Below, in pieces: positions 52,800 to 57,573 of a stretch of 61,268 nucleotides of DNA (position 1 is its first letter; each line of letters starts with the position of its first letter). The DNA comes from Balneolaceae bacterium (lineage in GTDB: Bacteria; Bacteroidota; Rhodothermia; Balneolales; Balneolaceae). The notes under the pieces were generated by a model. That model was not told where the DNA came from. It saw only the letters and a program-made list of their open reading frames with translations, and did not search any database. The stretch lies in the NCBI GenBank assembly GCA_017640605.1, contig JAEPQH010000022.1, positions 1 to 61,268 on the forward strand, in the 5' to 3' direction. A program made the translations under genes and the position numbers.

Positions 52800-53114
52800 A
52801 TGGACATTAGTGAGTGCCCGTTAACAGCGGCTATAAAGGTAGTGGGAGGCAAATGGAAGCCCATAATTATTTTGAATCTGAGCAAGTCACCCAAGCGATT
52901 TGGACAACTAGACTATTCCATACCGGATATTTCTAGGAAAGTGCTGACAACGCATTTAAATGAGTTAGTGGAGGATAAGCTAATAACCCGTCATTCCTAT
53001 GCTGAGAGCCCGCCTAGAGTAGAGTATCAGCTCACTGAAAGAGCAATAGAACTGGTCCCGATTTTTGAACAATTGGCAGACTGGGGGAGGGAGTTAACTA
53101 AGAAACAGGCCTAA
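52800..53114 (+). CDS. HxlR-family transcriptional regulator
   Basis: A 104-residue winged-helix regulator: ECPLTAAIKVVGGKWKPIIIL at the N-terminus with a Cys at position 6 that in many HxlR proteins senses electrophiles or redox stress, followed by RFGQLDYSIPDISRKVLTTHL and the wing. It is divergent from the broken membrane gene and the oxidoreductase, which it probably controls through the palindromes at 52688-52725. It converges on uvrB and overlaps its stop by four bases. Confidence 0.88.
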   Translation: MDISECPLTAAIKVVGGKWKPIIILNLSKSPKRFGQLDYSIPDISRKVLTTHLNELVEDKLITRHSYAESPPRVEYQLTERAIELVPIFEQLADWGRELTKKQA

Positions 53115-55165
53115 AGCTCTTTCTCCAACTTCCCGATTTGATCGCGGATTCTTGCGGCCTCTTCAAACTCCATATTTTTCGCGGCGTTTACCATAGTAGC
53201 TCGCAGATGGTCGATGAGTTTTTCTTTGCTTTCGAAGGTGACTTCATTCATAGCCGGAGAAGCTTTATAGGCAATGCCGTCTTCCGCAACTTTGATGGAC
53301 TCCAGATAATCTTGTTCGGCCAGTTTCTCTGCCTCAGCGCTGTAATCGAATTTGTCTTTACTGATAAGCGCGGGATCTACCAACGGTTTAAGTTCTTTGG
53401 TTACCGTTTGCGGAGTAATGCCATGTTTCTCATTATACTCTGCCTGAATTTTTCGTCGGCGCTCGGTTTCATCGATTACTTTTTTCATAGAGTCAGTAAT
53501 CTTATCCGCATACATAATGGCCTTTCCTTGTACATTTCTTGCGGCACGACCCACAATCTGAAATAAGGAAGTTTCTGATCGTAGGAAACCTTCTTTGTCG
53601 GCGTCCATAATTGCAACCAAACTCAGTTCAGGGATATCAATTCCCTCACGCAATAGATTGATTCCAACCAACACATCAAAATCCCCACGACGGTATTTGT
53701 ACAGCACTTCGATACGCTCCAACGCATCCAATTCGCTGTGCATGTAAGCAGCAGATACCCCCACATTTTTAAGATATTCACTGAGTTCTTCCGAAAGTCG
53801 TTTGGTAAGCGTAATTACCAATACACGTTCTTTCTTTTCAACTCGTTTTCGGATTTCCTCCATCAAATCATCCACCTGATTCGCAAGTGGACGAACTTCC
53901 AGTTCGGGCTCCATCAAGCCGGTTGGACGAATAATCTGCTCGGCATACACACCGCCACTCTGCTCCAGCTCATAATCACCCGGCGTGGCACTAACAAAAA
54001 TGGTTTGGTTTACAATTTCCTCCCATTCGTCAAAAGTAAGCGGACGGTTATCCATGGCGGATGGAAGTCGAAAACCATGATCCACCAATTGAACTTTTCG
54101 GGATCGATCACCGCCGTACATGGCTGAAATTTGTGGGATGGTTTGATGGCTTTCATCCACCACACAGAGGAAATCATCAGGAAAATAATCGAGCAGACAA
54201 AACGGTCGTTCACCCGGTTTTCTGGCGGATAAGTAACGGCTGTAATTTTCGATACCGGAGCAGTATCCAATTTCCTGTATCATTTCGAGATCGAACAATG
54301 TGCGCTGCTCTAAGCGTTTAGCTTCTAAAAACTTTTCTTCATCAATCAACACTTTGGTTCGCCATTGAAGCTCTTCGCGTATTTGTTTGATGGAATCTTC
54401 AAGCCGGGATTTGGTAGTTACATAATGGGAGGCAGGATAGATTTTAAACTCCTGAACTTCTTCAATGATATTTCCGGTATTTACATCAAACAGCTGAAGC
54501 TTCTCAATTTCATCGCCCCATTGAGTGATACGCAGGCCTTCATCAGAATACGCCGGATACACATCGGTAACATCGCCACGAACCCGAAACACTCCGCGTT
54601 TGAATTCATGGTCGTTACGTGTATAGTGCAAATCCACCATATCGTACAAGAGTTTTCTACGTGGGATTTCCATCCCGGTACGTAAGGAAACAATCAATTT
54701 TGCATATTCACTGGGTGAGCCAATGCCGTAAATACAACTCACCGATGAAACGATCACCACATCCCGACGACCGGAAAGCAATGAACTTGTTGCTCGTAAT
54801 CTAAGTCGCTGAATTTCTTCGTTGATGGATAAATCTTTTTCGATGTATTTATCCTGCGCAGAGATGTAGGCTTCCGGCTGATAGTAATCGTAGTAAGAAA
54901 TAAAGAATTCAACGCGATTATCTGGGAAGAAATCACTTAACTCACGGAAAAGCTGTGCAGCCAGGGTTTTGTTATGACTCATCACCAAAGTAGGTCGTTG
55001 CACATTTTCGATGACACTGGCGATAGTCCGTGTTTTACCTGAGCCCGTTATTCCAAGCAAAGTCTGAAAACGATCTCCTGCTTCCACGCCTTCGGTTAAA
55101 TCTGCGATGGCTGTGGGTTGATCGCCGGCTGGAGAGAAAGGAGACTGAAGTTTGAAATCGGACAT
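53111..55165 (-). CDS. uvrB: excinuclease ABC subunit B
   Basis: Damage-verification helicase of nucleotide excision repair. The 684-residue protein has Walker A GITGSGKT, the beta-hairpin region (YYDYYQPEAYI), helicase motifs (LLDYFPDDFLCVVDESH, VGINLLREGIDIPE, QIVGRAARN) and the C-terminal UVR domain (KEKLIDHLRATMVNAAKNME) that contacts UvrC. Complete and unremarkable. uvrA and uvrC are not in the window. Confidence 0.97.
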   Translation of the reverse strand: MSDFKLQSPFSPAGDQPTAIADLTEGVEAGDRFQTLLGITGSGKTRTIASVIENVQRPTLVMSHNKTLAAQLFRELSDFFPDNRVEFFISYYDYYQPEAYISAQDKYIEKDLSINEEIQRLRLRATSSLLSGRRDVVIVSSVSCIYGIGSPSEYAKLIVSLRTGMEIPRRKLLYDMVDLHYTRNDHEFKRGVFRVRGDVTDVYPAYSDEGLRITQWGDEIEKLQLFDVNTGNIIEEVQEFKIYPASHYVTTKSRLEDSIKQIREELQWRTKVLIDEEKFLEAKRLEQRTLFDLEMIQEIGYCSGIENYSRYLSARKPGERPFCLLDYFPDDFLCVVDESHQTIPQISAMYGGDRSRKVQLVDHGFRLPSAMDNRPLTFDEWEEIVNQTIFVSATPGDYELEQSGGVYAEQIIRPTGLMEPELEVRPLANQVDDLMEEIRKRVEKKERVLVITLTKRLSEELSEYLKNVGVSAAYMHSELDALERIEVLYKYRRGDFDVLVGINLLREGIDIPELSLVAIMDADKEGFLRSETSLFQIVGRAARNVQGKAIMYADKITDSMKKVIDETERRRKIQAEYNEKHGITPQTVTKELKPLVDPALISKDKFDYSAEAEKLAEQDYLESIKVAEDGIAYKASPAMNEVTFESKEKLIDHLRATMVNAAKNMEFEEAARIRDQIGKLEKEL

Positions 55166-55296: not shown

Positions 55297-55333
55297 CCTC
55301 ACCCTGTCCCTCTCCTGCGGCAGGAGAGGGGAC
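55297..55333. repeat. left inverted repeat of the DUF559 cassette
   Basis: A 37-bp element starting CCTCACCCTGTCCCTCTCC and ending AGAGGGGAC. Its inner part is itself a palindrome: CCCTCTCCTGC and GCAGGAGAGGG pair perfectly around one base. It is the inverted partner of the element at 55801-55838. Confidence 0.85.
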
Positions 55334-55440
55334 TCATTTAGTAAAATTGTGCCAGAATCAACGAAAGTAATTTTACTATGTAAGGAGTTGTGTTGAAAAG
55401 GATCATACTGTTTAAAAGTAATTGATCAAATCAGAAGTAA

Positions 55441-55800
55441 ATGAGTATTAAAAACCCATATTCAACGAAGGAGTTTAGAAGGAAGCTTCGTCAAAAAAGC
55501 ACAATTCCTGAGCGTGCTTTGTGGCAGGAACTACGAAATAGGAAGTTTAATGGGCTTAAATTTAAAAGACAGTTTGGTGTAGGGCCTTATGTGCTGGATT
55601 TCTATTGCCCTGAAAAGAATTTTTGTATAGAACTTGATGGGTCAATCCATGATCAACCAGAACAAATCGTTCATGACTTAAACAGAGATAAATTTCTAAA
55701 TAGAAACGGAATTAAGGTGCTTAGAATCAAAAATAAGATAATAATGGAGGAGCTTGATTTCGCTTTAGCGTTAATATCTAACGAAATTTCTGATATTTAA
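55441..55800 (+). CDS. DUF559 endonuclease-like protein inside a repeat-bounded cassette
   Basis: A 119-residue protein of the DUF559 family, a restriction-endonuclease-like fold related to Vsr. The core shows KFKRQFGVGPYVLDFYCPEK with Asp in a PD-(D/E)xK-like arrangement, then IELDGSIHDQPEQ and the C-terminal NGIKVLRIKN. Activity is inferred from the fold. The gene alone is bracketed by inverted repeats (55297-55333 and 55801-55838), the right one beginning directly after its stop. The unit lies between uvrB and a T9SS nuclease gene and looks inserted. Start ATG 55441. Confidence 0.88.
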   Translation: MSIKNPYSTKEFRRKLRQKSTIPERALWQELRNRKFNGLKFKRQFGVGPYVLDFYCPEKNFCIELDGSIHDQPEQIVHDLNRDKFLNRNGIKVLRIKNKIIMEELDFALALISNEISDI

Positions 55801-55838
55801 GTCCCCTCTACTTACCAAGGAGAGGGACAGGGGTGAGG
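55801..55838. repeat. right inverted repeat of the DUF559 cassette
   Basis: A 38-bp element starting GTCCCCTCTAC directly after the DUF559 stop and ending GGACAGGGGTGAGG. Its reverse complement matches the left element over CCTCACC, CTGTCCCTCTCCT and AGAGGGGAC, with a different centre. Its own GTCCC-CTCT / AGAGGGAC arms also form a hairpin, which may terminate transcription. Confidence 0.85.
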
Positions 55839-55842
55839 TAAC

Positions 55843-57573
55843 TCACTTCACCAACAACATCTTTTTCGAAATCACTTGCTTTGCGACTTCCAACCGATAC
55901 AAATACATGCCCGACGACAACAAAGACGCGTCAAAATAGTGAGAATGAGTTCCTGCCGACATTTGCTTATTATCAATTAAAACAGCGATTTGTTGTCCGG
56001 TTATACTAAACACACTAAGACGTACATTCGAAGATTTCTGTAATCGAAACGTGAGCGTTGTTCCGGGATTAAACGGGTTTGGGTAGTTCTGCATCAAATC
56101 AATTTCGAGTGGGATTTCTTCATTAAACGATGTTGAACTTGGTTCTTTGAACGTGAAATCAGCAACTAGTGGCAGGTGATCGGATGCTGAAGTGGCATCG
56201 TTGGGATCCATTCCATATTGAGTTAAGGAATCGGCCGGAAGTGATGGTGTAAATAGAGCGTAGGAATTATCCAGAGTTAGCACAGAGCCTGAATAGACAA
56301 TATAATCCAATCGGCCGGCGCTGAAAGAACTTCCCGAGCTGTACCAGGTGAAACTTGTAGGCAATTCCGGATTCATGGGCTTGGCATCTTCAAAGGCGCT
56401 TCCATCCCAATCGGGATCAAAATCGGGACCATGAATGGTATTGTTGGTAATATCTCCGGTGATCAATGTTCGCTGTTGTTGAGCGAGCCCAACCAGATTC
56501 ATATCTCCCATAATCATAATCGGAGTATTTGCAGCAATATCGAAAGCCTCTCCATTTTTTGATTTTCGAACAAAAGCCATCATCGCATTAATTTCTCGTT
56601 GACGACCTTCATCTCCCGAACTGCAACAAGGTGGATGCGCCACAAGCGCTAACAGTTCTTTGTCGCCCAAGTCGAGTAAATAGGCCGCGTTTCCATCTAC
56701 AGATTGCTGCCTAAGCACCGGAAAACGACTTACAATGAGATTATCATTACCTGTATCTCCATAAAACCATTGTTCGCCTTCGCCTGATGGTAAAAACTGT
56801 TCCATCAACTCCGCTGTTTGTTGCCCACTGTTATCATAAATCTCCTGAAAGCCGATGATATCCGGCTCAATGGCAGAAATAATACGTTTGAAAGCGGCTT
56901 GTTTTGCAGGATCGAACAGGTCATCTCTTCGCACATTGTACGAGAGAACACGAAGATCAGAGAAAGCAGGTTTTTTGATTTGATAGGGCGAGGGGGAAAA
57001 ACTTCGTTCCGAATTAAGTTGATAGGTAAGCACTTCGTTCTTTTCAGGAATTTGATCTCCGGATGCACTCGTAATAACAATAGCGATGGTATTGCCAATA
57101 AAAAGTGGAGATCCATTAACGGAGGCATTCAAATCAATTTTAAGCTCAAACCAGGTGGATGTTACAGTGGGTGCAGAAACCAGACCAATGGAATACGAAT
57201 TGATGGTTGTGCTTGTACTTCGATGAACAGAACCTCTGCGCTGTCCCAAGTTATATTCAAGATCCGCACCGATTTCATCGCGAGTATTTCCGGTACCGGT
57301 GTCGTTATCAGTGTCGATGTATAGCGTAACATTGTTATTTTCTTGCAGGGTGATTTCAGCGCCTACTTCCAGATACAAATAAAGAAAGCGATCATCGTTA
57401 TGCACTTTCAATGCTCCAAAATTAACGGAACTGAACGCATCTTCACCATCTACATAAAGAGGATCGATGGTGTCCCAATCGGTTTTGGATTCATCGATAA
57501 ATACTTGTTGTGCATTTGTTGAGAGATGGCAGGTAACGAAGAATAGTAATAGAAAAGAATAAACTGGTTTCAA
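55843..57573 (-). CDS. secreted endonuclease/exonuclease/phosphatase-family protein with T9SS sorting domain
   Basis: A 576-residue protein built from: signal peptide (to about NAQ21), a beta-sandwich resembling CBM9/DOMON-like modules (about 22-190), an EEP-fold hydrolase domain (about 205-475) with LRVLSYNVRRDDLFDP, DIIGFQEI, MIMGDMNLVGL and the final ASDHLPLVADF, and a C-terminal type A T9SS sorting domain (about 490-576) with NYPNPFNPGTTLTFRL and SSGMYLYRLE. It should be exported through the type IX system and stay on the surface or be released, possibly degrading extracellular DNA or phosphoesters. Confidence 0.9.
   Translation of the reverse strand: MKPVYSFLLLFFVTCHLSTNAQQVFIDESKTDWDTIDPLYVDGEDAFSSVNFGALKVHNDDRFLYLYLEVGAEITLQENNNVTLYIDTDNDTGTGNTRDEIGADLEYNLGQRRGSVHRSTSTTINSYSIGLVSAPTVTSTWFELKIDLNASVNGSPLFIGNTIAIVITSASGDQIPEKNEVLTYQLNSERSFSPSPYQIKKPAFSDLRVLSYNVRRDDLFDPAKQAAFKRIISAIEPDIIGFQEIYDNSGQQTAELMEQFLPSGEGEQWFYGDTGNDNLIVSRFPVLRQQSVDGNAAYLLDLGDKELLALVAHPPCCSSGDEGRQREINAMMAFVRKSKNGEAFDIAANTPIMIMGDMNLVGLAQQQRTLITGDITNNTIHGPDFDPDWDGSAFEDAKPMNPELPTSFTWYSSGSSFSAGRLDYIVYSGSVLTLDNSYALFTPSLPADSLTQYGMDPNDATSASDHLPLVADFTFKEPSSTSFNEEIPLEIDLMQNYPNPFNPGTTLTFRLQKSSNVRLSVFSITGQQIAVLIDNKQMSAGTHSHYFDASLLSSGMYLYRLEVAKQVISKKMLLVK

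Follow-up and report, generated by a model that had tools for sequence, protein, structure and literature searches.

A free-standing DUF559 nuclease gene between inverted intrastrand-triplex-type repeats: a candidate two-part selfish element

The closest described parallel to the locus considered here is provided by the RAYT/TnpA-REP systems (REPtrons, REPINs), in which a single nuclease gene is flanked by structured palindromes with a conserved head, GTAG (or CGTC). The RAYT enzyme, a Y1 HUH transposase, is thought to copy or move the REPs; gene-less inverted dimers are dispersed through the genomes, and the nuclease and its repeats co-diversify. A second body of work concerns the intrastrand-triplex repeats known as boxC, PIT or TM elements (Hoyne 2000; Holder et al. 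2015, PMC4666352). These occur in hundreds of bacterial genomes, that of E. coli K-12 included, and have been tied to genome instability, and the means by which they spread is unknown. They are intergenic, are found as inverted pairs in many phyla and are built of a pyrimidine arm, a loop, a purine arm, 2-3 nt and a purine block (PMC4666352). Holder et al. (2015) list a motif adjacent to the E. coli gene ycjD, and state that near TM sites they themselves had never come upon activities that could provide mobility (PMC4666352).

The locus analysed here has something in common with both. It lies in a window (the whole stretch of DNA that was analysed, 61,268 nt) that is an entire contig, C30, of a 3.74-Mb Balneolaceae genome. 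Its features are as follows:

53111-55165, minus strand: uvrB, the left boundary of the site
55297-55334, minus strand: left triplex-type element (stem 55308-55330, 3-nt spacer, purine head)
55297-55304: head of the left element, GGGTGAGG as read on the minus strand
55335-55440, plus strand: leader from the left element to the start codon, inside the cassette
55441-55800, plus strand: DUF559 gene (PD-(D/E)XK, Vsr-like), 119 aa, frame intact
55800-55839, plus strand: right triplex-type element, inverted (stem 55804-55826 with an internal mismatch, spacer, head)
55831-55838: head of the right element, GGGTGAGG, its fit established by direct sequence reading
55843-57573, minus strand: secreted endonuclease/exonuclease/phosphatase-like gene with a C-terminal sorting tail, the right boundary of the site; identity read from the translation

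As the preliminary description had it, a small DUF559 gene does lie between two inverted copies of a repeat; that these copies are palindromic is, however, fully true of the left one only, since the stem of the right copy has an internal mismatch. The left stem is a perfect 11-bp hairpin, CCCTCTCCTGCGGCAGGAGAGGG (55308-55330), and the folding z-scores are -2.95 for the left copy and -1.11 for the right. The inverted arms (55302-55334 against 55800-55832) are 85% complementary over 33 nt. The CCTCACC start ascribed to both copies was recovered as their outer heads (55297-55304 and 55830-55839), likewise inverted in the window, and the right copy begins, as had also been claimed, directly at the stop codon (55800/55801, at the TAA). 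The exact stem pattern is found at only 3 places in the 3.74-Mb genome and the reversed control pattern at none, so the window repeats cannot be attributed to chance. Matches to the window element elsewhere in this genome lie at C17:58611-58661 (E=3.8e-13) and C1:214877-214917. The unit on C1 (at 214.9 kb) is a gene-less dimer of the form GACCTCACCCTGTCCCTCTCCTTGGCAAGGAGAGGGGACT, about 30 nt, CCTCCTCCTTGAGAAGGAGGAGACAGAGGAGGTC, and its left, outer end, GACCTCACCCTGTCCCTCTCC, is identical to the left end of the window cassette. The number of repeats in this genome is nevertheless low, with about 5 matches to the covariance model introduced below. No defence neighbours of the window gene were seen, and a reading as a defence system was rejected: PADLOC gave only weak matches to the nuclease domains of DpdF and mREase_II.

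Read on the strand that begins with pyrimidines, the element consists of a pyrimidine arm, a loop, a purine arm, 2-4 nt and a purine block. The latter matches the purine arm in antiparallel orientation, G standing opposite G and either T or A opposite A, and this pattern is the rule of a purine-motif intrastrand triplex. All 8 of 8 head positions obey the rule in the left window copy; by reading, 8 of 8 also do so in the right copy, which has the one stem mismatch. Judged from sequence alone, the window elements are putative intrastrand-triplex motifs rather than plain palindromes. Covariation between heads and arms may be taken to support a triplex, or at least a contact of head and arm, without proving that the triplex forms: when the 87 distinct arm/head pairs separated by 3 nt were scored, 436 positions fitted the rule, against 371 (sd 9.5, maximum 402) when the heads were permuted among loci in 2000 runs. 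A motif was called perfect when its head matched all of the 7-8 outermost arm positions. For copy counts a generic pattern, GGNGAGGN(0-12)GGNGAGG, turned out to be unspecific, with control counts that were similar in most genomes, and it was replaced by a covariance model.

The element also has variants. One carries a second small hairpin between the purine arm and the head (for example CCCCTCT..AGAGGGG-TGGCCGCGAAGTGGGC-GGGGAG) and was found near the DUF559 gene at seven loci (L105, L112, L116, L118, L136, L154 and L160). At L052, L075 and L082 the flanks of DUF559 are direct repeats of about 250 nt, the stems having long loops instead of short ones.

With respect to the generality of this arrangement, we have assembled 120 DUF559 loci: 40 genes with 20-kb surroundings from genomes of the host family, and 80 more retrieved by searching bacterial species at large (Nitrospira, Neomarinimicrobiota, Planctomycetota, Desulfobacterota, Chloroflexi, Zixibacteria, Ignavibacteria and candidate phyla included). 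The similarity between the left and right 500-nt flanks exceeded that of all control positions of the locus in 29 of the 40 same-family loci (roughly 55 controls each) and in 52 of the 68 testable cross-phylum loci; flank scores of at least 16 were reached by 52 of these 68, against 33 of 2382 control positions. Flank similarity alone is insufficient proof, and because the flanks of GIY-YIG (16/29) and Y1 (27/29) genes are also repeated, albeit with repeats of other kinds, we have employed the triplex motif itself as the test. Perfect motifs number 1.55 per kb at up to 500 nt from DUF559 and 0.033 per kb at distances of more than 2 kb, a 47-fold difference. At least one is present in 82 of the 120 loci, and a purine/pyrimidine hairpin lies near the gene in 107; none was found near the gene in the other 13, nor at several DUF559 genes of the window's genus. 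The same 58 host-family genomes served for the controls: a perfect motif lies within 500 nt of 14 of 21 DUF559 genes and of none of the GIY-YIG (0/29) or Y1 transposase (0/29) genes, and the link is therefore not a general property of small selfish genes. The comparison of palindromes beside DUF559 with those beside random genes, which the preliminary description had proposed, thus places them far above both random positions and control gene families.

The same motif is found in plasmid and chromosome records of Sinorhizobium, Azospirillum and Neisseria, with triplex motifs near the DUF559 gene of N. gonorrhoeae (L083), and related hairpins occur in Sphingobium, Sphingomonas and Novosphingobium. 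Beside DUF559 on pSymB of Sinorhizobium meliloti (L084, 3826-3951 and from 4430 onward) lies a dimer, about 125 nt long and containing two large palindromes, that may resemble the RIME elements of rhizobia. In the 49 loci with repeats on both sides, the nearest heads point toward the gene on both sides in 37 and away from it in 3. The window, with its heads outward, belongs to this minority, as does L010, whose gene likewise lies between outward-facing repeats; in many other DUF559 loci the gene is enclosed by dimers of about 100-160 nt repeated in direct orientation. Across 89 loci, the more nearly identical two proteins are, the more nearly identical their repeats tend to be (r=0.37, against at most 0.156 after permutation), and the correlation persists among proteins that are less than 50% identical.

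For a more global view, all 58 host-family genomes were searched with the covariance model. Matches were present in 38 of the 43 genomes with DUF559 and in 0 of the 15 without it (Fisher p=5e-10) or, counted by genus, in 11 of 13 against 0 of 8 (p=2e-4). The DUF559 genes number 0-9 per genome, at scattered places, and their number follows that of the repeats (Spearman rank correlation 0.79); all 26 family genomes with at least 5 matches have DUF559. This association of presence is partly built in, because the model was trained partly on DUF559-adjacent copies and one or two copies come with every gene, but repeat numbers of up to 55 are not explained by that effect. Outside the family (198 genomes of the phylum), matches were found in 25 of 59 genomes with DUF559 versus 10 of 114 without (p=5e-7), so that some genomes that lack the gene still have matches. 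Among the matches listed, repeats accompany a free-standing small-ORF DUF559 in 20 of 37 genomes, against 1 of 14, which is like the background, where DUF559 occurs only in long fused form. Outside the family the link thus holds, approximately, for free-standing and not for fused DUF559; the split, again among the matches listed, was made by hand and is itself approximate.

DUF559 was also observed as a domain of proteins with open frames of more than 1000 aa (genomes G178, G150, G106, G097, G070 and others). Where only such long-frame forms are present, triplex repeats are not above background.

DUF559 is a large family of unknown function. The window protein matches its Pfam profile (PF04480) at 4.5e-31, with 107.4 bits against a curated cut-off of 20.6; the only other Pfam family in it is a weak REase_MTES_1575, and no Y1 HUH tyrosine transposase was found by the Pfam search. 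D53, E64, D66, H70 and D79 are invariant in an alignment of 54 sequences. An AlphaFold2 model (pLDDT 87.5) has its best PDB fold matches in 3hrl (NGO0050 of N. gonorrhoeae) and 3r3p (the catalytic domain of I-Bth0305I), Vsr (1vsr) being weaker, and a sequence profile finds the 3hrl and 3r3p entries and no others. The modelled protein thus shows a predicted nuclease fold with conserved candidate catalytic residues, the activity itself being inferred. NGO0050 (match 7.5e-28) is a solved member of DUF559, a structural entry for which we found no reported function. The homing endonuclease I-Bth0305I has a related nuclease domain (profile 1.5e-4, structure 1.7e-4) and is intron-borne, whereas the window DUF559 is a bare 119-aa domain; we know of no repeats that accompany I-Bth0305I. 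The Vsr/VsrA repair endonucleases have a fold superfamily in common with DUF559, but their mismatch repair is linked to cytosine methylation and no methylase lies beside the window gene. YcjD had earlier been placed in the PD-(D/E)XK superfamily (PMC1189080). DUF559 occurs in VsrA, and a Caulobacter DUF559 protein has been given a Vsr-like repair role in a DNA-damage context (PMC12907096).

In having a single nuclease gene between structured palindromes, dispersed gene-less inverted dimers and co-diversification of nuclease and repeat, the DUF559 system resembles a REPtron. It is not, however, a member of the RAYT/REP family, because the defining Y1 enzyme and the GTAG head were both tested for and are both absent: the enzyme is PD-(D/E)XK/Vsr-like instead, and the repeat head is a purine block of the CCTCACCC type that follows the triplex rule. 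The original supposition of a RAYT/REP-like layout with a nuclease of another fold is accordingly supported, both by the flanking tests and by the enzyme. With the boxC/PIT/TM elements the DUF559 repeats share the order of arms, loop and purine block as well as the intergenic placement, the inverted pairing and the spread over many phyla; the difference is that no mobility gene had previously been found near the former, whereas a nuclease family is linked here. Inverted repeats at both gene ends, as in a DNA transposon with terminal inverted repeats, are present in the window too.

In two congeners uvrB and the secreted-nuclease gene are near neighbours, with neither DUF559 nor repeats between them; the stretches matched on either side are 176 nt apart in G001, compared with 622 nt in the window genome. 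The expectation of an empty site between uvrB and the T9SS nuclease gene was therefore met as regards the absence of gene and repeats, but target duplications could not be shown, the congener flanks being too diverged for exact junctions or duplications to be recognised. A relative with the gene at this site and without the repeats would have refuted the preliminary description, as would repeats with no statistical link to DUF559; we found no such relative, and the repeats are tied to DUF559 at the level of both locus and genome.

The DUF559 gene of E. coli K-12, ycjD (1351407-1351760), is accompanied by a boxC/TM element at 1351205-1351240; a half copy adjoins the 3' end of the gene. The 3' stretch of ycjD is partly duplicated downstream (L089, 2330-2480), with TATTCTCCAGCACCGTCTCC occurring twice, next to the half boxC. 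The gene is missing or unmatched in about 2,000 of 5,426 E. coli genomes (3,333 have most of the region). In the ycjD-less genomes inspected, efflux genes adjoin fabI instead, and a 2026 study of the eef operon agrees with efflux genes near fabI (PMC12817139). Strains differ in their TM dimers at three sites, alx-sstT, lldD-trmL and hrpB-mrcB. As clean empty sites these had to be rejected, the short alleles at alx-sstT and lldD-trmL being deletion derivatives and that at hrpB-mrcB an absence with changed flanks, and no clean empty site with a target duplication was found at the three sites compared. With short alleles of this kind, and with congener junctions that have diverged, transposition is not demonstrated.

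We consider it probable that the cassette in the window represents a selfish element of wide distribution with two parts, a free-standing DUF559 gene and inverted triplex repeats that the nuclease spreads. This reading builds on what was observed (the anatomy, the linkage at loci across phyla, the co-occurrence in genomes, the arm/head covariation, the co-diversification of protein and repeat and the nuclease fold); recognition, nicking and mobilisation by the nuclease are inferred. Several findings weigh against it: no movement was seen, the E. coli alleles compared are not clean empty sites, 13 of the 120 loci have no hairpin near the gene, 10 of the 114 DUF559-less genomes outside the family have matches all the same, repeats are few in the window genome, and the Caulobacter DUF559 protein has been tied to repair (PMC12907096). 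The nuclease would recognise the folded repeat, a hairpin with its purine head laid back on the purine arm, in single-stranded DNA, such as that exposed at a replication fork, and would nick at or near it. Such nicking could lead to the copying or moving both of the gene-bearing unit, which would be autonomous, and of the gene-less dimers (two repeats with a short spacer), which would be non-autonomous. The co-occurrence across phyla suggests that the nuclease is the long-missing agent that spreads triplex repeats. For the broader proposition, that free-standing DUF559 proteins are an unrecognised class of mobile-element enzymes, Vsr-fold nickases that read an intrastrand triplex as an end signal and spread both themselves and boxC/PIT/TM, we would put the chance at about even.

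The main rival is homing: DUF559 could encode an endonuclease of the homing type whose targets are the triplex repeats. Repair of the cut would copy the gene into them, and the repeats, as its landing sites, would owe their spread to something else. Its closest characterised structural relative is, after all, the catalytic domain of a homing endonuclease, the genes of the window and L010 have repeats facing outward on both sides, as would a gene inserted in a dimer, and many others lie between direct copies of whole dimers. Nonetheless we think homing unlikely. Independent landing sites should exist in genomes without the gene, and all 15 DUF559-less genomes of the family are devoid of repeats; moreover, the inward orientation of the heads in 37 of the 49 two-sided loci is more reminiscent of terminal inverted repeats than of random insertion. 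A host function appears quite improbable to us, namely that DUF559 acts in repair, as Vsr does, by resolving stalls or mismatches at triplex repeats, and is kept because genomes in which these abound need it. A housekeeping gene need not lie between its own substrates; DUF559 varies from 0 to 9 copies per genome at scattered places and, at the window locus, is gained or lost within the genus. The Vsr-like fold, the DNA-damage context of the Caulobacter protein (PMC12907096) and the instability of boxC/TM loci (PMC4666352) nevertheless speak for it, and because that protein behaves in a Vsr-like manner (PMC12907096) a repair role for DUF559 cannot be excluded.

It is very improbable that DUF559 is merely carried along with repeats that another enzyme moves, such as a Y1 transposase/RAYT. 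Y1 transposases are indeed present in 40 of the 58 family genomes, but the triplex motif lies within 500 nt of none of 29 Y1 loci, and it is the DUF559 protein that co-diversifies with the repeat. Ordinary hairpins, that is terminators of transcription or palindromes that stand beside a small gene by chance, would account for the intergenic position of the repeats adjoining gene ends, and yet we find this explanation barely tenable in view of the 47-fold enrichment, the dispersed gene-less copies and the lack of any T-run after the window stems; plain terminators or chance are ruled out by the control genes (0/58) and the head/arm covariation.

Both components of the proposed selfish element were known. 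Their link is new to the literature that we searched, as are the enzyme and the signal for a system of a nuclease plus mobile palindromes. We found no DUF559-repeat link in the open literature that mentions DUF559, a search to which subscription papers and preprints were external, so that a prior report cannot be excluded; titles and abstracts on intrastrand triplexes, the only parts of those papers covered, contain no link to DUF559 that we could find. The link makes both the spread of the repeats and the function of DUF559 testable in E. coli K-12, which has ycjD and 23 such repeats. If the proposed element is real, it would be a second, independently evolved solution to the task of RAYT/REP, relying on another nuclease and, possibly, on a triple-stranded signal for recognition; were mobilisation to be shown, DUF559 would constitute a new class of mobile-element enzyme.

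A separate observation concerns the REPs of the CGTC type (GTCAT plus a stem, e.g. GTCATTCCCGCGAAGGCGGGAATC). As partners of DUF559 these were rejected, their heads being different and only 1 of 22 DUF559 loci having such a repeat. They lie within 500 nt of 6 of 29 small GIY-YIG genes (L177, L181, L190, L192, L193 and L199, all of the host family, with the gene at 1501), where their density over 40 x 20 kb predicts about 0.8; the figures are 0 of 29 for Y1 loci and 1 of 22 for DUF559. CGTC REPs have been described as lacking a dedicated transposase (PMC3733652), and since they are enriched beside GIY-YIG genes all the same, the two may form a second nuclease-repeat pair.
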